NCBI GenBank assembly: GCA_951799425.1
Contig: OX637404.1
Location: forward strand, 20,997,545-21,061,544
Source of the DNA: Ilex aquifolium
Lineage: Eukaryota > Streptophyta > Magnoliopsida > Aquifoliales > Aquifoliaceae
Direction: 5' to 3'
DNA length: 64,000 nucleotides
In this document: positions 2,801 through 43,000 of the stretch, piece after piece
Numbering within the stretch: the stretch's first letter is position 1
Layout: the number at the start of each line of letters is the position of its first letter
Program-made: the position numbers and the translations under genes
The notes under the pieces: model-generated
The model's database searches: none
Told to the model about the DNA's origin: nothing
What the model saw: only the letters and a program-made list of their open reading frames with translations

Positions 2801-3952
2801 CCTATGTGAGAGACTCGCACCATGTGTGTATATTGGATTTGTACAAAAGATTTCTTGAAAATTAGGTTTATTCTATGCCAAGCCAAAAAAATAAATAAAT
2901 TTGGATAGTCATTATTTCTGTAGTCATCATATATTCTCATGTCAAGCTAAAAAAAAATGAAAAATGAAAAAAGAAAATGTTGCTCCAAAATCTGCTGGAA
3001 TTGACAGACATATCTCAATTGACAGATAGTTTTCAGCTGTCTATTTTTAAGGATTCAAATGTCTTGTTTCATAACTTACTTGGATGAGAAATAATCAACA
3101 AACACACAATACAAGGAACTAATAAAAGAGGATTTTTTTCATTAATTCAATTGAAGTGACTTTAGTTACAGAAAGACTGAATAAATAGTCTTGATTGTAT
3201 TAATAACTGCCTCCTAAAAATTATTACAAAACTACACCTAAAAATGTCCAGATCGTGAGTCTTGTAGGGAGTTTGAATGTATCTTTCATCTTCTCCATTA
3301 TATGTCCTTTTATAGCTACTGTGTTCGACGATTTTGTTTCCATCGACTTCTCTTTTTAAATATAGCTGTCGTTGATCATCTCCCGCTCTTTCTTTTAAAT
3401 TCTTCCACGTGACACTTTTTAAATGTCATGTGACGTCAAGTGTCCATAAGTTGAATATTCCTGAAATTTGATATTTTATGTTTAAACAGAAAGATAATTT
3501 TTTTTAAAAAAAAAAGGCTTTCGATGACAGATCACATAACTTTATAACAATCATGAGTCGACTCCGCACATTATTTTCACAATTTTCATAAAATGCAAAA
3601 TCCAAAATGACAACGTATCCCAACGTTTTTATAAATTAAAATATCATTAAACGAATTTCAAAATGAAAAATATTATAAAAAATGAAAATGATTGGTGATA
3701 ACAAGTGGTGTCCATAGAGGACCATTCACAGCTCCACTGGAGGCCACCACGGGGCGACCTGCAATGGTCCCGAATAGTTCAGTTCAATCAAACCCCTAAG
3801 AGAAGAAGCTGACAATAAACAAATTTAGCGTGTTTGAGTTTATGCTGTATTGGGTTCTTGTTGTCTAATGTGTTGTTTACTAAATTGTAAAACGATAGGG
3901 TTTATTTATTTTGCGAGCAGTTGTTTTGCATTTGGGCAGGAAAGTAATGTTT
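2801..3952. other. Intergenic, no gene seen
   Basis: AT-rich, no sustained coding frame. A GC-richer patch at about 3710-3780 is unexplained. Confidence 0.5.
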
Positions 3953-4206
3953 CGTTTGGTAGGAATGATAGAAAATAGGAGGAATAGAAAGTAGGAGGGA
4001 TATCCTCCAAGGAAGGAAAAATCGGAATGATTTATTTTCATTCCTTTGTGTTTGGTAGCATGGATGAAAAATAAAAATGCTTAATTTTTTTTTTGTACTT
4101 GGTAAGATGAAAAAAAAATATATTTTTATTTTTTTAAAAAATATATAAATACATATTTTATCATTATATTTATATATAAAATTAATGTATATATAATATA
4201 TGTATA

Positions 4207-4805
4207 CTAGTTATTGCCTGTGCCTGAAGGCACAGTGTAATAAAAAATGATAAACAATAAATATATTTGTATTCATATCCAAAATTAAATCACAAACATA
4301 GAGAAGAGATAAAAGAATTTAAGTATCAGTTTGTAGTGGGGGTGAGAGGTGGTGGGCGGCAGTGGTGGTGGTAAGAGACGGTGATGGTTGTGGTGGCTGG
4401 CAATGACCGTGGTGGCGGTGATGGTGGCGAGGGCGGCGACAATGGTGGTGGCGGCGACGGAGGTGGTGGCTGTGGTGGGGGGGCGGTGGTGGTGGCGGCG
4501 ACGGCGGTGGTGGTGGTGGTGGGTGTAGAGGTAGTGGTGAGGGTAGAGATAGAGGTAGTGGTGGAGCAGTTTCAAACACTATTATTTTTTTTAAAGTATT
4601 TATGAGAAATAATTTCTAAAAGTAGTTTTAAAAAATCACTCCAAACACACCCTTATGACCCTATTTTTCCTATTAAATTTAAGGTGTTAATATTAACTAT
4701 TAGATTAACTTTAAAGTAAAATATAAAGTGATCTCAACCGCGAATAACAAAAGTCATTTTGTTTATCTTTTGAGATTTGAATTGTAAGCTACTTTATTAT
4801 ATAGA
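4207..4805 (-). mobile_element. Non-autonomous Helitron (copy 1)
   Basis: Read on the minus strand it starts TCTATATAATAAAGTAGC and ends with the hairpin TGTGCCTTCAGGCACA followed by GGCAATAACTAG. This is the Helitron plan: 5' TC, a 3' hairpin about ten bases from CTAG, insertion between A and T and no target duplication. The opposite arm of the host foldback is uninterrupted at this exact point (between 5238 and 5239), confirming both ends. The middle (about 4335-4565) is a GGT/GGC/GAC-rich triplet tract that yields glycine-, valine- or proline-rich ORFs which are not genes. Confidence 0.9.
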
Positions 4806-5288
4806 TATCAAAAGATATATAGATAAATAAAATACATTTCAACACAAATAATTAACTTTTTATCCACTTTCCTTCTAATTTTAGTGAGTTGGAAAAAAAG
4901 TTCATCCATTCACTTTTTTCATTCTTCATATTTTTTTTTTCTTACCAAACATGATATTTTATTTATCCCTATAACTTTCCATTTTTTTACTTTTTCATCC
5001 TTCTATTTTTCTATCGTACTAAATTGAGCATAATGGAAAAATGGAAAGATAGAAAATTGGAGGGATAAATAAAACATCATGTTTGGTAAGGAAGGAAAAT
5101 AAGAATGATGGAAAAATGGATGAATTAACTTTCCTTCCAACCCATCAAAATCAATCCCTCCAAAATCGGAAGGAAAGTAGATGAAAAATTAATTATTTGT
5201 GTTGAGACGTATCTTATTTGTCTATATATCTTTTTATATATACATATATTATGTATACATTAATTTCATATAAAAATACAATGATAAA

Positions 5289-5294
<6 letters not shown>

Positions 5295-5325
<31 letters not shown>
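5295..5325. repeat. (AT)n microsatellite
   Basis: An AT dinucleotide run at the outer end of the right arm of the inner inverted repeat. Confidence 0.9.
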
Positions 5326-5332
<7 letters not shown>

Positions 5333-5415
5333 TTTAAAAATAAATTTATAAAAATTAAAAAATTAAAAAATTAAAATTAAATTAAAATTTTTTTTTAAAA
5401 AAATTTCATCTTAGT

Positions 5416-6036
5416 TAGGGGTGAAAATTTTCGACTTAACACGATGACATTACTCGAACTCGACACGAATTTTATGACACGCACTTGATTATAACTCAAC
5501 ACGAACTCGAAATTGACCTGACACACGAACACGAAATATAAACAACTCATATTCAGTTCAACCTATCAGACCCAAAATTGACACCATCAACCTGTTTATT
5601 TAAGAATAAACACTTTCTCTATTTTCTCGTTTGTATGGTAACACGAAATTAATACGAAATTAACATTTTAACTACTATTATAGATATAAAAAGTTAATTA
5701 TTTGTTACTATTTATTAAGCACTGACATATTATTAAAAAAAAAAGATATTTTTACTCATTATTATTATTATATCTATTTAAGTTAATTTTTAGTTTGTAG
5801 AAAAAGTATGAGCATGAATTTAATTAAATGAAAATAGAATATTAGCGTTAATTTTTTTATTCAAAGTTTGTGTGAGTCAATACGAATATGAATACGAACA
5901 GGATACGAAAATAAACATGTCAACTCGACACGACACGATTAGTTAAATGAGTTGAGTTATGTTTGATTAATATTCGACACGAACCCACAATGACTCAACA
6001 CAAATCTGACACGAAACGACTCGATTGTCATCCCTA
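5416..6036. mobile_element. hAT-type non-autonomous element, family A
   Basis: It is flanked by an exact 8-bp duplication, ATCTTAGT, at 5408-5415 and 6037-6044. The inverted ends are TAGGGGTGAAAAT and TAGGGATGACAAT. Subterminal DNA is rich in ACACGA/ACTCGA blocks; the interior is AT-rich and non-coding. A clear relative, about 450 bases, is at 49050-49503, and a shorter one at 2574-2800. Confidence 0.88.
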
Positions 6037-6205
6037 ATCTTAGTCAGCACAAAAAAAAAATTAATCATTTTTATTTTCTGTCTATCCTACTAAACACAAA
6101 TGAAAGAAAATGTATCATTCATATTTTTCTTTTTTGAAGGATGAAAAATGTATCCCTCCTACTTTTCATCTTACTATTTTTTATTTTTTCTACCAAACGG
6201 AGAAA

Positions 6206-18013: not shown

Positions 18014-19618
18014 TCAGGATGTACTAATTGCTGGCCGGGGTTTTCTATCCTGAAGAGAGATTACAGTTTCAAAAGCACCCACCAAAGCCTTAACCTTACT
18101 CTTCCTGGTCTGGACAAGCTTGCTAGCAGTCTCTTCAATCACATTATTGAACAAACTCTGAGCACCTTTTCTTCCTTCCACAATTCGGTGTCGAAGAACA
18201 ACTTTCACAGATTCGGATTTAGTACCTTTTGACTCGCCATCAATAACTACATTCGTTAAGCTTCTCATTTTGGTAGCAGGCTTATCATTTTGGTTCTCCG
18301 ATAGTATTTTTTGCTGCCTAAATCTGAGTCTCCTTGGACTCCTGTTTACACTTTGGATGTCAACCACCTTTCCTCTCCTGAATTTGAGCTTTTGTGGTGA
18401 GCAGTCTCTATCTTCTGAGATAATCCTTCCAACCCTTTTAGGCCTGCTCTTGGTATCAATTTTTGGATCTGCAATTTGTTTTTCACTTTTGCAAGTACGG
18501 ATGGAGCCACTTTGGGTACTACGCAAGGACTTTGATGAAAGCAAGATCAATGAAGACGACTTTTTGGATAATGATGATGACTTCTTGTTAGAAGTAGCAT
18601 TCCGAGTATGCCTCGAGCCTTTGCTATTTGAGGATAGAGGTGCAGATGAAGATAATTGAGTTGTGACTGGTTGAGGATTTCTCAGTTTTTCGTTCTCTGG
18701 AGATGGCGGTGAAAGGGAGACATCTGCACCATTTTGGCGGCCTCCATTCTCTGCAAGGCCCATGGTTTGATTCTCAGCATTCGGTTCAATGACATACAAA
18801 GTCTTCTCTGGAACTTTTTCATAGCTAGGTTGCTCAGTCTCAACTTTTCTGGCACTGGTTTCAATCTTCGGATGGGACACCTTTTTTGGATTCCTAGAGT
18901 TTCCAGGATTTGTGCTCAAAGCTTTCTTCACAGGAGGCTTGGGAGATGGATAAATAGTTGGTGGCACCTTATCATTCTTCTTGCTCATTTTGGAGGTCCC
19001 CATCACATTGCTTATTTTGATTTCACCATTCATTCTTGAAACTCCCACTGGACTCACTTGAATAGCTCCCATTCCCTTTGGTACGATAATTTCACTGAGT
19101 CTTCTGCTTGAATGATGCGGTGGAGAGAGAGAAGATGCCTTTGATTGCAATGGCTTCGGTTTCAAATCACTTGCAAGTTTTGCAGAAGCATTTATCCCCT
19201 TACCAGTTGATGCAACCTTCTTATAAGAGCCAGCTTCTTTCTTGGTAGATGCTGGACCTACTTTCTTTATAATTTCGGTTGTGTCAAGTGTTGGGCTCTT
19301 GAACTCCGGTGAAGGCTTGGGACAGACAACTGATTTCTTTTCTATCTGCACTAAATTTATAGCTTTAGCTGGATTGTTGCTTTTATCTGGTCTTGCTGTG
19401 AATCTTTTGGGCATGGGACTCTTTGTTTTGGAAACATGTTCTATCCCGTATTTACATAAGTCGTGGCAAGAACCGGTTGAAGCTCTGAGATAATTTGGTA
19501 AGACCTTTGCTCCGTGGATTTGGATCCTTAAGTTGCCAGTCGACTTCCTTCTCCTATAACCAATTTCAGCTTCAATTTTCTCAAGATTTACGGGGATATC
19601 AATTGCCACCTTGTCCAT
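18014..19618 (-). CDS. Plant calmodulin-binding domain protein
   Basis: A single uninterrupted frame of 534 aa. The start MDKVAIDIPVN is preferred over an upstream in-frame Met because a splice-acceptor-like pyrimidine tract plus GCAG lies just upstream (around 19660-19670), so the extra 33 residues are probably 5'UTR or intron. Near residues 43-58 is a YLRASTGSCHDLCKYG segment, recalled as typical of plant proteins with the calmodulin-binding domain (Pfam PF07839). The middle is Ser/Lys/Pro-rich, basic and low in order. Residues about 473-525 match that domain: VVLRHRIVEGRKGAQSLFNN, then VIEETASKLVQTRKSKVKAL and VGAFETVISLQ. This makes it a likely Ca2+/calmodulin target, possibly nuclear or cytoskeletal given its basic character; the physiological role is not visible. 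The long ORFs on the opposite strand here are shadows. Confidence 0.88.
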   Translation of the reverse strand: MDKVAIDIPVNLEKIEAEIGYRRRKSTGNLRIQIHGAKVLPNYLRASTGSCHDLCKYGIEHVSKTKSPMPKRFTARPDKSNNPAKAINLVQIEKKSVVCPKPSPEFKSPTLDTTEIIKKVGPASTKKEAGSYKKVASTGKGINASAKLASDLKPKPLQSKASSLSPPHHSSRRLSEIIVPKGMGAIQVSPVGVSRMNGEIKISNVMGTSKMSKKNDKVPPTIYPSPKPPVKKALSTNPGNSRNPKKVSHPKIETSARKVETEQPSYEKVPEKTLYVIEPNAENQTMGLAENGGRQNGADVSLSPPSPENEKLRNPQPVTTQLSSSAPLSSNSKGSRHTRNATSNKKSSSLSKKSSSLILLSSKSLRSTQSGSIRTCKSEKQIADPKIDTKSRPKRVGRIISEDRDCSPQKLKFRRGKVVDIQSVNRSPRRLRFRQQKILSENQNDKPATKMRSLTNVVIDGESKGTKSESVKVVLRHRIVEGRKGAQSLFNNVIEETASKLVQTRKSKVKALVGAFETVISLQDRKPRPAISTS

Positions 19619-22400
19619 TGTAAGAGAGTACTGAACAAAATTACAAACTAACAATCCTGCAAGGGAACATGAAGTGTTTTCTTTGAGAGAGAGAGAGAGA
19701 GAAGCAAGATAAAGCACAATGTTTTCCTTTTCTCTTAAGAATTCAAAGCCAAGGATTTACCAAGACCCGATGTAGTTGTAAAGCAGAACAATTATATTGA
19801 GCCCTCAAACATCACAAGGTTTCCATCCTGAGAACATCAACAAACCAGAAATATTTATAAGATCCAATAGTAGTCATTAGTCATAAACTTCCATGGGAGC
19901 TTTTATAAGCTCGTGTTCTGCAAATCAAAAACCAGGACTAAAAGGCTTGTGATGCATTGCATGGTTTAATACTGCCATGGGAACTGAATCTGTTCATCAA
20001 CTTCCGGCATATGATTTGTACTGAAGTATTTTGGTTTTGGGGGCAGGGGACATGAAGGTGCCTATCTATTCAAAATTCAACTTTGCATTCACATGCCATG
20101 TCAAACAGTATACAAAGAATACATAATGAACTTACAATGCACTAACACCGACTTGTTTCAATGCTTCATCCAATCATCTCACAAGTTTCCGATCTTATTG
20201 CCTTTGCGTTCAATTTTTGGTAAAATTTTCGTAATGGAGTAATTCTGTTTTTAATTTTTGATAGAATTCAAATATGGGTTATACTTGGGCTGTCGTTTGC
20301 AGGACTTATGGCAAAGGTTGGACTATCTAAGTAGGGAAGAAAATATCAGATCGATCATTTGAGGTTGTTTCTAACAAAACAAATACAGAAAAGAGAAGAC
20401 TCGACATACTTTTTCTTCAGCTTGCAATTCTTCCTCCATCTACACTGTTCCATTAAAATAAGCACAAAGTTTTACCATCAAATAAGTCCATGAACACAGC
20501 TTTAATTAAAAAAATATCAAATTGAATGACCATCCAAACTATCCATCACAATAAGAGAGAAGAAGATAAAATCGCAGAACATCTCGCTGAGAAGGACATC
20601 GTATTTGTATCCTTTAGGTTGAATAAATCACTGAGAATCATGACTAAAACCATTTGATTATGTACTCCACTAGAGCTATCATGGAGATAAATGATCATTC
20701 ATTCAGAAAATAACGGAACATACACTGCATGATAATGGAAAAATTCTTCACCTTTTTCTTGATTTTTTTGTCCCTTGATTCCTTTAAATTCAGAATACCA
20801 ATACAGACAGTTCCAAAACAATTCTTACATGATATCATGCAAGTAAATCCATAAACGAAAAGAAGCGATACACAAGCTGTCCTAGTCTAACAAACAGCAA
20901 CAAGACTTTCATCCAGAAACAAAACAAAGTGAACCGGTTTCAATTCCAATATCATGGAAATAACTGCTTATTTCTCAGTCTACTTTGCTCTTGACTCTCA
21001 TGAAGCACTGAGAGACTAGCCTGGCCCATCAAAAATCCTACAATTCGCTTCATCTAGTAAGAAACAAACCCGAAAAATTTCAACTCAAAAAATGACCAAA
21101 TTTGAGGTCCAAAAACCGAAATTAATCCATCAACTATCCAAGCAGGCACATTCCTTTTCCAAAAGAGGCGGACAATGGACATTGAACCATTTTCAACCAT
21201 GGACCTTCATTGAACAAATATCACAAATCATCCCCTTTCATTTCAATAAATCCTTGAACTCTACAACATGTTCTGATCCATCCAGCATCAATCGAATATC
21301 TACAAATTAACTGATTCCATAAAGATTAAAAGAAGGAAAACACGTCTGGATATAGAGCAATATCCTTTCATTCTGTCAATCAAGAAAAGTAATCTGAAAT
21401 TTACATCACTGGCCCTGGAGAAGAATCCAAAAAATTTTATGATTTACAGGTCTATATCTATCTGTACTTGAATAATCGAAAAATAGACTAATGAAAGCTC
21501 AAAGCTAATAGCAAGAGGCCAAACAAAATAAATAATCATAGAAACTTAACAACACATGATATGTGAAATTAGATGTCGTAAAAGAAAAAACCCATCAAAG
21601 ATAATACGAAAATAACAATGTTTATTAATCTTCTGGACCCCAACACCTTAATGAATCCATCAATATCCTGTTTTCTTCAGCAAAAACCATGTTGCAAACA
21701 AAACTGAGAGCACCTATCACAAATAAAAACTTTTATTCGTGTCGTATCAAAAAAAAAACCCAAATGAATTCATCAGAAACTTTTAGACATCAATCTTTTT
21801 ACCATGGCCACAAACAATTCAGAGACAAACCTATCAAATCCAGAAAAATCCCAATACATAAAAAACTCCGAGGACCCAAATCAGATCATCAAGCACTTGT
21901 TTTGCAATTAAACAAACACCCATGCCACAAACAAAACAATGATCAACCCACATAAAATCAGCTTTAAGAAAAGGAAATAAAACCAGTCAAAGAAATGAGT
22001 TCATAGCATAAATATACCTTTTTTTCCCATCAATTTTCTCTGTGGAAAAAGACACCAAATACCAAATGTTTAGTTTAGGAAATCACCACAAGGGTTTTGC
22101 AAATTCTTTGGTAGGTCTTTCTGTGTAAAGAATATGCTCATTTGTTGCAGAGGCATTGTTTTTTTAAGTTATGAACAAGAAAGAGAACAAACTTTTATTA
22201 CATGAGGATGATGATGAGAGGAGAGAGAAAGCGCGCGTGGAGAGAGGGGACCCCACAGAAAGAAAACGGTCCTTGTCAGAAGATTTATCCTTTCTTAAAA
22301 CAGCTATAGATTGTGTCGGCTTTGGTTGGGGAGGTTACAACTGTCCGTACGTTCTTGACCAACCATCTCTACTATCAGGATTAAATTAATACAAATTATT
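19619..22400 (-). promoter_or_regulatory. Leader introns and promoter region of the calmodulin-binding protein gene
   Basis: No independent gene is supported here. A GA/CT tract at 19686-19702 and an acceptor-like site near 19660 indicate a spliced 5'UTR for the gene ending at 18014. The transcription start is probably near 22000-22250, where a purine-rich stretch with GAGAGAAAGCGCGCG occurs. Exact leader exons cannot be fixed without transcripts. Confidence 0.35.
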
Positions 22401-22669: not shown

Positions 22670-23500
22670 CTAGTTATTGTATGTGCCTGAAGGTACAGAG
22701 TAATAAAAAATGGTAAACAATAAACATATTTGTATTCATATCCAAAATCTAATCACAAATACAGAGAAGAGATAAATGAATTTAAGCATCGGTGGTAGTG
22801 GAGGTGAGATGTGGTGGTGGTAGGAGACGGTGATGGTTGTGGTGGGTGACAATGACCGTGGGGGCGGTGGCGGTGGTCGTGGTGGCGGCAGTGGTAGTGG
22901 TGGCTGCGATGGCATTGGTTGGGGCGACGGTGACGACAGTGGTGGCGGCGGCGGCGGCGGTGGTGGCAACGACGATGGTGGCGACGATGGTGGTGGTGGT
23001 GGCAACGGCAACGGCGGCGATGGTGGTTGTGGTCGTGGCAACGATGGTGGTTATGACGGAGGTGGTGGCGACAATGGCGATGGCGGTGGCGGTGACGACA
23101 ATGGTGGTGGCGGCGATGGCGGTGGTAGTGGTGGCGACGGCGGCGGGGGGGGGGGGTGGCGACGGCGGCGGTGGTGGTAGAGGTAGTGGTGGTGGGGGTG
23201 GGGGTGGGGGTGGTAGAGGTAGTGGTGGAGCGGTTTCAAACACTATTTTTTTTTTTTTTAAAGTACTTGTGAGAAATAATTTTTAGAAGTATTTTTAAAA
23301 AGTCAAACACACCCTTAGGGGCCTGTTTTTCCTATTAAATTTAGGGTGTTGATATTAGCCGTTAAATTAATTTTAAAGTATGAGCAAAAAAAAAAAATTT
23401 TAATTTTAAAGTAAAATTTAAAGCGATCTGAACCGCGAAAAACAAAAGTCATTTTGTTTATCTTTTGAAATTTGAATTGTAAGCTACTTTATTTTATATA
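22670..23500 (-). mobile_element. Non-autonomous Helitron (copy 2), expanded triplet tract
   Basis: It matches copy 1 on both sides of the triplet tract: CAATAACTAG end, near-hairpin TGTACCTTCAGGCACA with one mismatch, the CAAATATGTTTATTG-like segment, and the TAGCTTACAATTC 5' segment. Insertion is again after an A. The 5' terminus has run into a (TA)n tract at about 23495-23516, so that end is approximate. The G-rich triplet tract spans about 22795-23230, roughly twice that of copy 1. Confidence 0.8.
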
Positions 23501-30745: not shown

Positions 30746-32865
30746 CATTGTTTTATACTATCCGAGATATAATTGCCAACCCCTTTAATTTATATATTTG
30801 TTTTCGATATAGTTTTTACCAGTGGAAAAAAAAGTGATTATGTCATGACAGATTCTTCAACAAATGCTAATTTTACTGTTTTGTAAACCGATATATATAT
30901 TCCTGATGAAATTTTATGCACAAAAAATTGAAAAAAAAGTTATTTTTTTCCATCTGATCAACTGATTTGAAAAAAAAAACTAAATCAAACCTGAAAATCA
31001 AAGTATAAACTCCCTTACAAAGAAGAAATGTTGCTTTACTGAGGTTTTTTTTTTTCTAATAAAAAAAAGGGAATTCATCACGACCACACGTTCTTTGGAT
31101 TTATAGCTACAACACAAACTTTGGACGAACACAAATCAAGAGCACACACTATCTATGCTCAACAATTAAACTCGGGTTTTAAGACTCTCGAATTTCGAAA
31201 CTTGTGAATTTACGTCTTATCTGTTATTCTAGACTATATCACAAAAATAACTTTGTTAATGCACATGAGTGGTTTCTTCTTTCTTTGATAATCTTTATTC
31301 AGCAGTAATGATGAAGAAGAAAGAAGAAAGAAGAAAGTGTGGGCAAGAAGAGTTTACTTGACCAAAGTTGAAAGTCTTATGATAACAAGAGAATTTGTAT
31401 TGAATGAACATGATAACTATTCCATGATTGTTTATGTTCCCTTGGCTTTAAGAAGAGGCAACCCCATCGATTTGGGGACCCAAAAAATACTGTGGCACAT
31501 ATTATACTTTTTGTTTCTGCACCAAGTATTGAAATTGAAGTAATTAATATATTAAAAGATAAATAGTATTAAGAGTTAATTATTGTAAAGGTTGGTAGCA
31601 GAATCAATTCTTCTGTTGCGAAACGTGAGAAAAAGGTCGGATATAGGGCGATGACAAGTGTTCATCCTCCAAACAATGAGATATGAACTCGAATCCAATA
31701 ATCAATGTCCCTTAAATGGGAAAATGTTACTTATCACTTCCCTAATAACTTATCCTTGGTCTAGAGACGACAACGTTGTATAATGAGTACGATATTGTTT
31801 TATGAAACATTTGGCTAACACATTTGTAAGGATTAAGGAGTTATTGTTGGCAAGACAAGTTTTTTCCTTTTTAAAATAAAAAGATAAGAAGTTCATTGGT
31901 TCAAATTAAGGCAAAACATGTTTCTTAAATCCAATGGAACAACTAAACTTTAAAAAAGATAAATTCTTAGGGGGATAGAGTTAGAAGACAAAGGCAAGAT
32001 GGTAGTTGGACAAAGCTAGGGCAACTCTTGACAAGATTTGAAATCAAGATATTTGGATTTACAATTAGTCTCTATTACATTTGACCTATTTTTTTGAGTC
32101 AGGTTATGAGAGATTTATTTCTCATGAATACTCTAGTTTCGGCGTAGATGACTTGTCTTTGACTGGACTGAGAAGAAAATTAATCGAGTTGCGCGTAAAC
32201 TGACTCAGAGACTATTAACCGTTGAAAAAAAGAAAAAGAAAAGAAATTAGGGCAACTCAGGAACACAAAATTTTTAATTGCTGGTAGGCCCTAAGAACTG
32301 TAAAAGTTTTCAAACAGACCCACTAATAATTCTAGGAACATGTTTACGCTGCATCGATCAGAATGGACCCAACAAATTCAACTCACATTTTGTAAGGCAT
32401 GATCAGAATGGGCTACTCTCCCAAAAAAAAAGATCAGAATGGGTCCTGTTGCATGCACGTCATGGGTATAAAAGCCAGAAGAGACAGCTCATAAATGGCC
32501 CTAGTGCCTAACTCGTACGGTCATAATTAAACATATAAACTAGATTAATGGTTGATTTGCCACAAATTATACTTCAAAAACACTAATGTTAACGACCGAT
32601 AATTGTTCTAAAAAGGTGTCTTTTAAATTTAGGATGCACCTATTACTTATAAATAACGTATATATCGTGTTAATCATAATGTCTTTTATGATTTTATTAT
32701 TTTACATCTCGAAACGTTTTAGCGTAATTCAATTATAAATTACACATCGAGCAATTGGAAACCCAAAAAATATAGATTGAAACATGCATGATTTTACTAG
32801 GTCACGAGTGTCCCCCAAGGAGCAAACTTCCCCATTCAATATAATGGCTCTCTTTACTAATTCAA
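30746..32865. other. Intergenic, upstream of FMO
   Basis: No gene supported. An (AAGAAGA)n-like stretch is near 31312-31336. The last few hundred bases are likely FMO promoter; no motif beyond the TATA box could be assigned. Confidence 0.45.
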
Positions 32866-32874
32866 CTATATAAA
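32866..32874 (+). promoter_or_regulatory. TATA box of the FMO gene
   Basis: CTATATAAA lies 58 bases before the ATG at 32932, followed by a C-rich stretch and an ACACACAC tract. This is the expected spacing for a short 5'UTR starting near 32900. Confidence 0.7.
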
Positions 32875-32931
32875 CCCCCCACATATTTCTACCTACAAAA
32901 CACACACACACAACAAGATCCGACTACCACC

Positions 32932-35900
32932 ATGGTTTCTGTTATCTATCAATCGAAAAATGTTTGCGTAATCGGTGCCGGACCGTCGGGGCTGGTGGCA
33001 GCCAGGGAGCTGAGGAAGGAAGGACAAAATGTCGTGGTTCTGGAGCAAAACCATGATGTTGGAGGACAGTGGCTTTATGACCCTAATGTTGAGGATGAAG
33101 ATCCCTTAGGAAAGGGCACTACCTTGAAGGTCCATAGCAGTCTCTATGAGTCAGTAAGGGTGGTCTCTCCTAGAGAGATAATGGGTTATAGTGATTTCCC
33201 ATTTTTGGTGAAGAAAGGTAGGGACATGAGAAGATTTCCAAGCCATAGGGAACTTTTCTTGTACCTTAAGGACTTTTGTGAATGGTTTGGGTTGAAGGAG
33301 ATGATAAGGTTTAATGTTAGGGTTGATTATGTGGGGATGTGGGAGAATTCAAAATTTGGTGAAGATTTGAAATGGGTTGTTAGAAGCAAAGAGAAGAAGT
33401 CTGAAAAGGTGGTGGAAGAGATCTTTGATGCAGTCATTGTGGCCACAGGTCATTACTCCCAACCCAGGCTGCCTGATATTCAAGGTATGCAAGAATCTCT
33501 CTCTCTGTCTCTCTCTCTCCATTTCCAAGGTAGTCAATTTGGCAGGAGAATGGTTCAAGTTATCTCTTGTTCGTCTTGAATGTGAAATTAACAGGAGTTC
33601 AGATAGCTGTATAAGGTTTTAATGACAATTTAACTTTAATTCCATCATCAACCCACTATAAATAGATGGTCGGGATAATGGAAAGTGAATTATTTTGGTC
33701 GAATCCTCTTTAGACCTTTTGTATCTTCACAAACTAAGAACTACGAGAATGTGCAATTCATTCTGAAGTGACGAAGGATAACATTCTCTCTCTCTCTCTT
33801 GCAACTACAAAGACCAAGACCTACAAATTACTACATTGCTTCAAGAGTGATGGATGGATGGTACCATTCTCTATCTCTTTCTCTCCAAGTAAAAAAAAAC
33901 TAAAGCAAAGTCAAGATTTTTCAGTTCTAATGAAAAGGAGCTTTATTCATTCTTAAGTGACGTAATACAATCTCCATCATTGAATATTAATAAGATCCAC
34001 TTATTTGATGGTGAAAACTGTCTCACATCAGTTGGGATGAAATACTCGGTAAAAAATCTTGGTTAGTATAGCATTGTTAGTTAATGTATTATATATAAAA
34101 ATAAAACACCTATATCAACGTAGCATTTTTTTTTGGTTTATTAAAAGAATATTCTTTTTTCCTCTTCGCCTTTTGTTTGTTAATGGTTTGTTTCATTTGC
34201 TGATAAGGAATGAATACATGGAGAAGAAAGCAAATGCACAGTCACATTTATAGGATTCCAGAGCCATTCCGCAATGAGGTAATACAATTTTCCCATACAA
34301 ATAAAAAAAGAAATGCTATCATTTTATGAATGTGTCTACGGTACCCACAAAAAATAGTGATTAGCAGTCTGAAAAATGGATCTTAGCCACTCGTATTGAT
34401 TTATTTGTGATTGTTGATCTTGAAAATGACAACGTAAATTTGTTGTGTTTTGATTTGTCAATGAATTATGTTTTATATATCATTTTCTAATTGTTAATGA
34501 TGCGACAACGACATGGTCACATCTGGGCTCGCCCCACAACCCAAAATACAAACCCGCAAACACAAAATTTCAACAGTTGTGGATTCAAAGGTGAACCAAA
34601 GTTATGGTTTTTGATTGCCCCTGAAGAACATAATCACAACAATTTTGGGTTGAAAGGTGCTTCAAAGCTGTGTTTTTTTTATTAGCTCTTGAAGCCAATC
34701 TTCAAAGTTTTGTTTTGAAACAGTCAAAATGGTTTTGTTTTCATGAAAACAGAAACGCGTTAGCGATTATATACCGAAATTCCTATGTTTCGATATGTAT
34801 CGGAATATTTCGAGATGCTCAGACCGATATTTTAGATACAAATTATCAAATATTTTCTCAGTTTGTATTATATTTCTGAATTATTTTCGAAATATTTACG
34901 AAATGTCCTTGTTTCCTTCCACAGGTGGTGATTGTGATTGGTAATTCAATGAGTGGGCAGGACATAGCCATTGAGCTTGTGGATGTGGCAAAGGAGATCC
35001 ATCTCAGTGCTAAATCTCTTGATATTTCTGAGGGATTATCAAAAGTAATCTCCAAGCATGATAATTTGCACCTTCATCCATTGGTCAGTTGATTCAAACC
35101 AATTTGTCCAAGTCTGAGAAAACCCTTTAAAATTTGTGGGCTAGTTTTGAATTTATAGAAGTTTATGGACATTGTTAAAATATTGCAGGTAGAGTCCCTG
35201 GAAGAAGATGGAAGGGTTATATTCATAGATGGCTCTTGGATCACGGCCGATACAATCATATACTGCACAGGGTAAAAATTCCATACTTCATGGAAAAAAA
35301 ACAAACTAGATTGTACTAGAAAATATTCTATGCTCACTACAATCAAGGAAAAACTGTCAAACAACTTGTTTTTGTCAAATACACAATAAAATATAAAACA
35401 TTTTATATGTGAATAATGTACAACATTTGGTAGGTGAATATGGACTTGACTAGGGTACCAATTTTTTTTTTGTATCTCCAAAATTTATTATTTTAATGAG
35501 TGTTTTTACAATATTTTTAGATAATTTTGCAACTAAAAAAATTATTATTTTTGTGGCTGATTTACCACTTTTGTGAGTGTTTTTATCACTGTTGTGACAA
35601 ATATTTTTAACATTTTTTTTGAAACAAAAAAATTATCACTTTTGTGGGTGATTTATAACATTTGTGGGTATTTTTGCCACTGTTGCGGGTGTTTTTATCA
35701 TTGTTGTGATAACTATTTTTATCACTTTTTTCGGTACCAAAAAAAATATCATTTTTGTGGTTAATTTACAACATTTGTAAGTATTTTTACCACAATTGTG
35801 AACGTTTTTTTTTACTTGATAACTATTTTTACCACTACCAATTTTCTTAATAGTGATAAAAATAACTACAAATATGGGTACGGTACCGAATTTTTTTTTT

Positions 35901-40034: not shown

Positions 40035-43000
40035 TTAAGTAAAAGTAAGAGATGGATTACTAGCTGGAAATCTTTGGCCCCTGCGCCGTCTATTGTTCTT
40101 CCCCCAACCTGTTACGCTGCATCCTTCCCCGAAGCCCAATTCATTGACATTAGTTTGCTGCTTCAAAAGTGAGTACATTGTGTGCTGTGTGCCATTGGAA
40201 CAAGAAATACGTGACTGCCTCTTCCCTCTTGCACACCCATTTTTACCCACATTTCTCCTTCCTGAACCTGTCGCCATAGTAGTATCAGCACTTTCTGTTT
40301 GGAAGTCCTTTCGTCGCCTTGCCCTCCTTGTCTGGACCCTCCTCTGCTGACTTGATATGAAAATGGGACGTGTTCCATTCTTTCTCTGACGATTACGCTT
40401 GCAACAATACTCTTCCACCTCCATCTCTGTAGGCTTCAATGTCATGGTATCAAAGTTATCAATTACATTGGGTAAAATTTCATTGTGATCACCATCAGCA
40501 GCACCAGTCAGAAATGTTTCAACCTCCTTCTCTAGATCACCTGCCATAGAACAAACTATCCCGGAAAACCAATTTAGGCAGTCACTGAAAGCTTCTGATT
40601 GCTTACCAGTGGCATTCTCCAAACACAGTGGAACCCCAGATGTAGAAATTAAGAATATAGCTTCTGCAGCAGTCCTGGCGAGTTTCGCCTCTGGAACCCT
40701 ATCTTCCTGTTTTGAAGGTGTCTCAAGTTGGTGTTCCTCAGATTCTCCTCTAGGTGGTGAACATTCCTTATTTTCTGGACTAACAGGTGCCTCCAAATCC
40801 ATTCCTGGTGCAATTTTCATGACGAGAGTTGGAGTAGCAGGTGCAAGTGAAGACTCATCTTCTATTATGAGAGAATTCAGGTCGATGTGATTACGAAAGT
40901 CAGAAACCTTATTAACAACTCCAATATGTACCACAACATCATCTGTGCCAGAGTTTCCAGAATCCAGTGAAGAATCAGGAGCAGCCCAACTATCATGTAC
41001 CCTCATTTTCTCTCTGTTTTCTAAGTCTCCATTTTCAAACGGATGGGAAAAGACTGATTCCATCACAGCTGAATGTTGTGTTTCTTCATCGAGTTTGCTA
41101 TTACTGTCCGCCTTTGCTCTAAACCAATGGGATCCCTCCACTGAGTCTTCAGGCTTCTTTCCTTCACCTGCAATCCTGTTATTTTCTCGAGAAACTGTTG
41201 TGTCTAACGAACAGCTAGGGGGCATGGAGTTATAATTCACACCCATACGAGTGGAATCCTTAAAGCTTTCTGAAAGATCATGGTGTTTGGAAGAAGAGTT
41301 GTTGTGACCATTCCTGGTTAGAGGATTAAGACTCGTCAAAGGAGGGAAGGCCATCAATGTCATGGACTTTGACTGGAATTCAGGGGAAAAGCTGTTCGGA
41401 AGGGAGCTCACACTTCCAAACCTTGGGCTACATGTGGAATTTCTGCTTGGATGAAACTTGTTTCCAATATGGGTAGGCCAACCTACAGATGATTTAGAAT
41501 TTTTTGTCAATGACGTACGAGTATCAACACCTGGAAGTGCTTGAACTGCTATAGGGATGTGTCTCAAGTTATGTATTGCTTTCCTTTGAGATGGAACCGA
41601 TGATGGCTCAGACTTAGCCACGTCAGACTGAGTAACAAGCTGGTTTAAAGTGGGTATAGAATAACTGACCAGCACTGGATAGTTATCATTGCAAAGATTA
41701 TGATTTCTTTCGGGGATGTTTAGTTCCAAATTTGTTCTTTCACTCCACATTTCTTGGTCAACCTTATCCAATAGATTGATCCTTGGATGTTCATGACCTT
41801 GAAGTTCAACACATGATCTGGATAATCTTTCTTGACAGGAAACTTGAAAGAGAGGACTCAAATTGCTTCCACTTTTCCCTGGAAAGGTAAGCACTAACCA
41901 AACTTTAAAAAAGGACGGTGAATACAATAAAAAAAACAACCATAATCTAGATGAAACAACATCGTGTCGTTTTTAGGAAGCAAGGAAGAAAGATAAAACA
42001 ATAATGAAACCATTTTTATTTGCAATCCCAAACATAATTCTCACCTGCTTCATCATTGTAAGTTTGCAGCTCCTGTTGCCTATCATATATCATCTTTGAG
42101 CAATCCTGGAAACCCTTTCCTGCATTAATAGTATGGACAATTTCTTTATTCAGTAGTAAGAAGTCTGAATTCAACATCCCAGAGAGATTGTGGCCCTGGT
42201 ACGGAATCTCCACATGGCAGGTGTCCGAGCCCAGTAGGCTAGTGGAATTTGGAGTTCCTCGATCATCAAGCTGGATAGGCTCATTCAAGTCAACCAAATG
42301 TTTCGTTTTCCTGGAAAATGAATCAGGGCTGACAGGACCTCCTTGGCCACCGGAGAACACAACACTGCCTGAAATTCTCTTAGAAGGATAATATGGCATC
42401 TCTGGCACTTCAGAAACCTCGTTTTCTTCCAACTGCTCCTCTTCTTCACTGTCGATGTACTCATCAGCTGGAAGTTCAAGATCCAACATTCTTTTCCCGG
42501 AGTCGTCGTTTCGTGATAATGACAAGTTGCAGTCTTCCTTATGGCTTTTACTCAAGGAAGGTTCACAATCTGCTTTCATGTTATTTCCCACAACAAAACT
42601 TGAAAATGCTTGAAAGTTTTCAGCATTTAATGCATAGGACCTATTACTGGCAGGGTTTTCCCAGGGCAAGCTTGAAATGTGCCACATCTTCTGTTCCACT
42701 TCAGATGGCTTTTGAGGGAAAACAAGATTTGACTGAAATGTTTGCAACCGTAAATGATGTTCACACTTTTCTCTCAATCTAATTTCCTCCATTAATTCCC
42801 TTTGTCTTCTGTAAAGGCGATGGAGTTCAAGGACCTGGAAGGGAAAAATGCTTTCACAATCAGCAGTCTAGGAACTGTGAAGGGTGTGTTTTGATCAAGA
42901 AGAACAACTTCCCAGCAAGAATCATTTAGTTAAATACAAAGGCGATTTGTGAACATTCTCGTTGCCCTATCAAGGTGGAAGGTGAACAAATTGCTTGGGC

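Follow-up and report, generated by a model that had tools for sequence, protein, structure and literature searches.

Our results point to a recurrent, base-exact Helitron target: the bond AATATATGTATA^TATNAAAAGATATA within a MITE family, which we read as a hot bond. It is likely, in our assessment, that Helitrons of several families have landed at this same bond, and that a second bond close by has been used in the opposite orientation, through what would be the working of a RepHel-type protein. The window, by which we mean the whole 64,000-nucleotide stretch of DNA analyzed, carries a Helitron-filled copy of the MITE beside an empty one. The Helitron itself is an ordinary new member of a known element type and its empty site is genuine; the part worth following is the recurring exact bond.

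RESULTS

Helitron 4207-4805 and its empty counterpart

The features of the filled and empty MITE copies are as follows.

4207 to 4805, minus strand: non-autonomous Helitron, 599 bp, with the 5' TC at 4805-4804 and the 3' CTAG at 4210-4207
4218 to 4235, minus strand: inverted repeat of 18 nt, CTGTGCCTTCAGGCACAG, set 11 nt in from the Helitron 3' end, as read from the sequence
4338 to 4567, no strand: GGT/GGC-rich degenerate repeats in the Helitron, longer in the second window copy
22670 to 23498, minus strand: second, longer copy of the same Helitron family, with an exact 3' CTAG
3948 to 5030, minus strand: left MITE copy, which carries the Helitron and is 484 bp long once the insert is taken out, with the TIR TGTTTCGTTTGGTA..TACTAAATTGAGCA
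3945 to 3947, no strand: left copy of the TAA target duplication of the left MITE, assigned by sequence and family rule
5031 to 5033, no strand: right copy of the same TAA target duplication, assigned likewise
5034 to 6202, plus strand: right MITE copy (the "empty" arm), ending near TACCAAACGGAG
5238 to 5239, no strand: bond in the right MITE copy that corresponds to the Helitron insertion bond and is unoccupied, placed by arm alignment and empty paralogues

On the minus strand, the sequence at 4207-4805 reads TCTATATAATAAAGTAGC...CTGTGCCTTCAGGCACAGGCAATAACTAG and is flanked by an A and a T (left flank ..AATATATGTATA, last base 4206; right flank TATCAAAAGATATATAG, first base 4806). The TC and CTRR ends, insertion between A and T without target duplication, and an inverted repeat close to the 3' end are those of a canonical Helitron, and an earlier note on this DNA had correctly identified the element as a Helitron with TC and CTAG ends. 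Other Helitron copies and inserts have a comparable inverted repeat near the 3' end. The second copy in the window has a longer GGT/GGC-rich stretch, and its 5' end runs into (TA)n with no TC visible.

The earlier note had also taken both ends to be fixed to the base by a comparison of the two arms of the host. The ends 4207 and 4805 are right, but the arm comparison alone leaves one base of slack, because the bases at 4206 and 4805 are both A. The boundary is settled at 4207-4805 by the TC/CTAG rule together with other genomic copies. In the genome searched (800 Mb, 103 contigs), the 599-base query found at least 69 matches, most of them near full query length (40 of 5,782 first-look candidates were scored). 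End statistics were taken from 40 fetched regions and the second window copy, counting as single ends those outside tandem arrays. The base preceding CTAG was A in 35/35 single ends, and CTAG itself was intact in 33 of the 35 single 3' ends; T adjoined the 5' end in 39/40 single ends, and TC was present in 34 of the 40 single 5' ends, three of the six exceptions running into (TA)n. Other copies thus stop at the same bases, which was the outcome that the note had looked for in such a search. A strict 5'-end pattern followed by T had 1,659 genome matches (825 + 834, window locus counted), and its reversed control had none.

Read in reverse, the right arm continues as ..AATATATGTATATATAAAAAGATATATAG without interruption, with the junction at 5238/5239. 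That this opposite arm is empty proved correct: the rejoined left flanks (3930-4206 joined to 4806-5029) align unbroken with the reverse complement of the right arm, continuously over the junction. With both inserts removed, a looser alignment of the two arms has 390 identities among its 469 aligned columns (83%) and contains 133 internal gap columns. An inverted-repeat finder paired 4141-4206 with 5239-5304 (92%) and 4798-4893 with 5151-5246 (82%). The extent of 4136-5310 proposed earlier for the arms was too short, since they span about 3948 to about 6200.

A single arm-to-arm comparison leaves room for a hidden TA duplication, and paralogous MITEs are the stronger empty-site comparison. In all 29 paralogues the sequence runs unbroken through the bond and the TATA^TAT spacing is unchanged, which makes a hidden TA duplication unlikely and, with the A and T counts above, bears out insertion between A and T without target duplication. 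A strict empty-site pattern had 481 matches in the genome (control, 0).

Probable recurrent insertion at one exact bond

A pattern spanning the 5' junction had 124 genome matches at up to 2 mismatches (control, 3), of which 42 were exact, window locus included. We fetched 20 of the 41 other exact loci. Their common 5' end is partly a product of selection, because the query pattern holds the first ten bases of the Helitron end; on the far side, the MITE resumes at the same base in 17 of the 20. In L103 (C9:5662736-5663986), it resumes after a duplicated target stretch, with TATCAAAAGATATA.. present twice beside the Helitron. In L090 (C1:37052900-37054255) and L106 (C13:30697771-30699021), the 5' ends of two Helitrons face each other across TATCAAAAGATATA.

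A second 5'-side pattern allowed a gap of 0 to 30 bases, so that the query does not preset the position, and an identical 4-base gap was found in 30 of its 33 matches (control, 0). With a separate pattern for the 3' side, 25/27 matches were at the same bond (control, 1), and one more reads GTATA/CTAG at its end. The window locus is absent from both the 5'-side list (33) and the 3'-side list (27).

The earlier note had regarded copies with the same flanking sequence as a sign against its ends. Such copies occur. They leave the ends unmoved, because copies whose flanks are unrelated stop at exactly these bases, but they reveal that the insertion was not a one-off.

Both Helitron ends were seen at the bond in 11 of the 20 fetched filled loci. 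Inserts of the window family with both ends there are L091, L092, L095, L099, L102, and L103 (541-806 bp). The others are L109 (4,052 bp), L114 (2,505 bp), L110 (3,677 bp), L090 (373 bp), and L111 (2,196 bp); the handles L109, L110, L111, and L114 denote extensions of the loci L098, L096, L097, and L093, respectively. The 3' end of the L110 insert is CTTG, not CTRR, and the last 370 bp of the L111 insert resemble L090. The remaining 9/20 did not show their 3' side at the bond: the stretch was too short or held an array or, in L108, the 3' side lay a few bases off. In L112 and L113, which extend L107 and L094, the far Helitron end was not found.

More than one Helitron family occupies the bond. 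By blastn (E value, 1e-5), the window family has no match to the other inserts there. L109 and L114 are 95.5% identical over 2.5 kb and share 40 bases with L111, and the first 71-78 bases of L110 are 76-77% identical to L090 and L111. These similarities distinguish three clear kinds of Helitron, probably four; the likeness of L109 to L114 and of L110 to L090 and L111 means that the independent families are possibly fewer than four.

Two departures from the simple arrangement were noted. On the left side of L090 there is MITE sequence. L051 (C6:4638976-4640018) contains a Helitron array in a MITE copy, with a 5' junction six bases off the usual bond; about 200 bases past that stretch, at C6:4640228-4640250, a 3' end lies at the usual bond.

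A second bond and the 14-bp core

The second bond, TATNAAAAGATATA^T, is 14 bp from the first and is used in the opposite orientation: 31 of 56 opposite-orientation matches read AAAAGATATA/TC (control, 4). Six of the 31 loci were fetched, and every one of them belongs to a MITE copy; by eye, their 5' ends fall into about four kinds. Whichever of the two bonds is used, it is the TC end that points toward TATNAAAAGATATA. The 3'-side pattern would also show a forward insertion at the second bond, and none of its 27 matches did.

These arrangements raise the possibility, which we put forward tentatively and at slightly less than even chances, that the MITE is an orientation-locked Helitron landing pad, with a 14-bp core TATNAAAAGATATA, exact integration bonds at both edges, and the 5' end facing the core. 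A landing pad would imply that the Helitron machinery recognizes a defined target sequence, beyond the mere presence of an A-T step. The course of events that we consider likely, apart from the landing-pad idea, is as follows. The Helitron at 4207-4805 inserted between A and T, without target duplication, into the left MITE copy, and Helitrons of several families, alike in their 5' end TCTATATAATAA and in the inverted repeat near the 3' end, have used the same bond in other MITE copies, largely independently. One RepHel-type transposase, presumably supplied in trans, would nick the AT-rich stretch at a preferred position, and the 5' TC end would be joined so as to face the 14-bp core, to which we infer a role in this step.

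A general preference for AT-rich DNA

The strongest competing explanation, although an unlikely one in our view, is that the exact bond reflects only a general Helitron preference for TATA^TAT in AT-rich DNA. In its favor, among 36 sites outside the MITE, the base before the cut was A in 36/36 and the base after it T in 35/36, mostly as TAT, with a TATATA box 7-12 bases away on the CTAG side. A weight matrix trained on 30 of these sites (L051, L045, L032, L046, L050, and L039 were dropped by hand from the 36) placed the hot bond in the top 2% of positions in the 26/29 MITE copies in which the cut was placed correctly. Across all 29 copies (700-2,300 positions each), however, the median rank of the hot bond was 11th; without the three copies with a misplaced cut (L079, L084, and L087, T runs), ranks were 2-21 with a median of 10. 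Because the matrix ranks the hot bond first in no copy, general AT preference fails to explain the exactness, and the generic matrix was set aside as a predictor. Its top choice in 9/29 copies, ten bases away, was used in 0/27, and of nine A-T steps among the 29 bases upstream of AAAAG, a single one holds 30 of 33 insertions.

Hairpin-guided targeting was set aside as well. As single-stranded DNA, the 40-nt target folds better than shuffled sequences (z about -3). Compared with control A-T sites, joined insertion sites had a slight folding advantage at 30 nt (P = 0.022) that was not significant at 40 and 60 nt (P = 0.057 and 0.43), and the sites are A+T-richer than the controls. The base that would complete the stem, a C, was not enriched in filled sites by hand count (8/30 filled versus 21/100 first-listed empty sites; P = 0.62).

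Independent insertion and co-amplification

Many of the insertions at the hot bond look independent, and some co-amplification of filled MITEs is likely. We also considered a single Helitron insertion in an ancestral MITE, the composite then being multiplied by the MITE transposase, so that the bond would be shared by descent. As an account of the whole set this is improbable and largely refuted; it could apply to a subset.

The tree of the window family (79 rows) requires 10 label changes for the 13 in-MITE copies (10-12 in bootstrap replicates). Shuffled labels gave a mean of 12.2 changes, with 16/500 as low, and the in-MITE Helitrons are thus slightly clustered; well-supported branches alone force 3 changes. 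A single clade for these 13 copies was rejected, with a log-likelihood lower by 100.9 and a p-AU of 0.00024. In addition, inserts with little or no mutual similarity occur at the same bond, and the base N beside the bond varies alike in filled and empty copies, both of which speak against descent from one composite.

Other results favor co-amplification. In the MITE tree, 19 filled copies need 9 changes against a shuffled mean of 15.3, with 0/500 as low, i.e., filled MITEs cluster beyond shuffled labels; this tree is poorly supported, omits L090 and L106, and used a biased empty sample, picked by similarity to the right arm. The near identity of the L109 and L114 inserts points the same way, and a hAT-like element in this MITE (described below) has just such a history. 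Independent insertion for much of the set remains our preferred reading, and it carries the more general warning that flanks common to Helitron copies do not prove shared descent.

The host: two MITE copies

Tourist-like MITEs of the PIF/Harbinger superfamily have a 3-bp TTA/TAA target duplication, short TIRs, and many copies. The host resembles them in all of these respects, and from its termini we take it to be a pair of PIF/Harbinger-type (Tourist-like) MITE copies in opposite orientation, of which the left carries the Helitron. MITE units start with TTA/TAA followed by TGCTCCGTTTGGTA (or nearly so; L081 is an exception, with TTC) and finish with TACCAAACGGAGCA (or nearly so) followed by TTA/TAA, TGCTCCGTTTGGTA and TACCAAACGGAGCA being the TIRs. 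The duplications match in 26/26 paralogues with a 3' end; no 3' end was found in the other 3 of 29. The left MITE sits in opposite orientation at the edge of the right copy, whose own 5' TIR or 5' end and target duplication were not identified in the window.

The earlier note had seen the host as one inverted repeat whose arms began as copies of each other. This did not hold. With the right arm as the query, the best relatives elsewhere are 92-95% identical and the left partner arm is 75% identical in the same search; with the left arm, the best relatives elsewhere are 79-83% identical over most of the length, and the right arm comes in row 42/43 at 75%. Single units make up 26 of the 29 relatives; a further unit in direct orientation is present in L060 and L062, and an inverted piece of 191 bp in L088. 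A true foldback with arms from a duplication, in which the Helitron would be a locus-specific event, is very improbable and was rejected: the arms are mutually inverted and alignable over most of their length, and L088 does have its inverted second piece, yet both arms have nearer relatives elsewhere than in each other, nearly all relatives are single units with matching duplications, a separate TAA/TAA pair flanks the left unit, the hAT-like insert is confined to the right unit, and no complete head-to-head pair with common outer ends, as one mobile unit would give, exists among the 29 loci.

The insert of the right unit comprises two features.

5416 to 6036, plus strand: hAT-like element, 621 bp, with the TIR TAGGGGTGA/TCATCCCTA, also in other MITE copies
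5408 to 5415, no strand: 8-bp duplication ATCTTAGT of the hAT-like element, with a second copy at 6037-6044

Both the 8-bp target duplication, present twice, and the short TIRs are hAT-like. Part or nearly all of this element is kept in 28/29 MITE paralogues (six near full length, 18 with only a 3' piece of 62-141 bases), which indicates that it arrived with the MITE. It has become part of a MITE subfamily (window 5416-6036, L060-L088). A reciprocal history, with the hAT-like element entering one arm and the Helitron the other, was rejected, as the hAT insertion is not local and is found at the same place in MITE copies elsewhere.

DISCUSSION

Helitrons are usually said to choose an A-T step within AT-rich DNA as their target. 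The bat Helraiser/Helibat element has TC/CTAG ends, a palindrome 11 nt before the 3' end, and a preference for AT-rich DNA that is strongest on the 3' flank, according to the accessible text of its report (PMC4778049). The accessible description of wheat Xuan-Feng is that of a canonical Helitron with TC/CTAG ends, a palindrome shortly before the 3' end, and A/T insertion without duplication (PMC13286980). The element at 4207-4805 shares with both the terminal motifs, the 3'-proximal palindrome, and the mode of insertion, and the TATATA box at the sites examined here resembles the 3'-flank AT preference of Helraiser. Whereas an AT-dinucleotide preference is what those texts describe for Helraiser and Xuan-Feng, here one exact bond recurs inside another transposon. 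The Helitron machinery most likely has a sequence preference beyond the AT rule as described there. Among the entries listed from the open-access literature on Helitron target preference, hotspots, MITE insertion, and empty sites, none described an exact bond that is used repeatedly.

With its 481 empty and 30 filled copies under strict patterns, and with more than one Helitron family at the bond, the MITE family amounts to a natural replicated experiment in target recognition, and its bond is a defined substrate for assaying a plant RepHel protein. In the portions available to us, the work on HINE/Helentron compares paralogous empty sites (PMC4067079) and that on FoHeli reconstructs pre-insertion sites (PMC5148889). 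The same logic of filled versus unfilled sites fixes the ends in our case, but here the filled copy has an unfilled one as its neighbor, and hundreds more unfilled paralogues are available.

Helitrons of the window family also form head-to-tail arrays of up to five or six units (L019, L020, L025, L027, L030, L036, L045, L046, L050, L052, and others), with junctions of the types CTAG/TC, CTAG/TATA/TC, or the TC-less CTAG/TATATAAT. The last of these could perhaps derive from CTAG/TATA/TC if one TATATC repeat were lost. A pattern for head-to-tail junctions that allowed a gap of 0-8 had 558 genome matches (282 + 276; control, 0), of which 237 were of the perfect CTAG/TC type. Tandem junctions are no proof of rolling-circle concatemers, because insertion beside a resident 5' end gives the same junction. 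Tandem Helitron insertions are known from plant centromeres and from several species (cited in PMC5148889), and one element 2 bp upstream of the 5' end of another was also seen in that study, as far as its accessible part goes. The arrays found here are like those tandem insertions in their head-to-tail order and close or abutting ends; they differ from them in that one strict junction pattern of one small family is present 558 times.

Elsewhere in the window, Pfam matches at 18014-19756, 32845-33579, and 40035-42867 mark genes with a plant calmodulin-binding domain, a flavin monooxygenase-like domain (partial), and DUF863, the last spread over two open stretches. The window genes carry plant-specific domains by Pfam.
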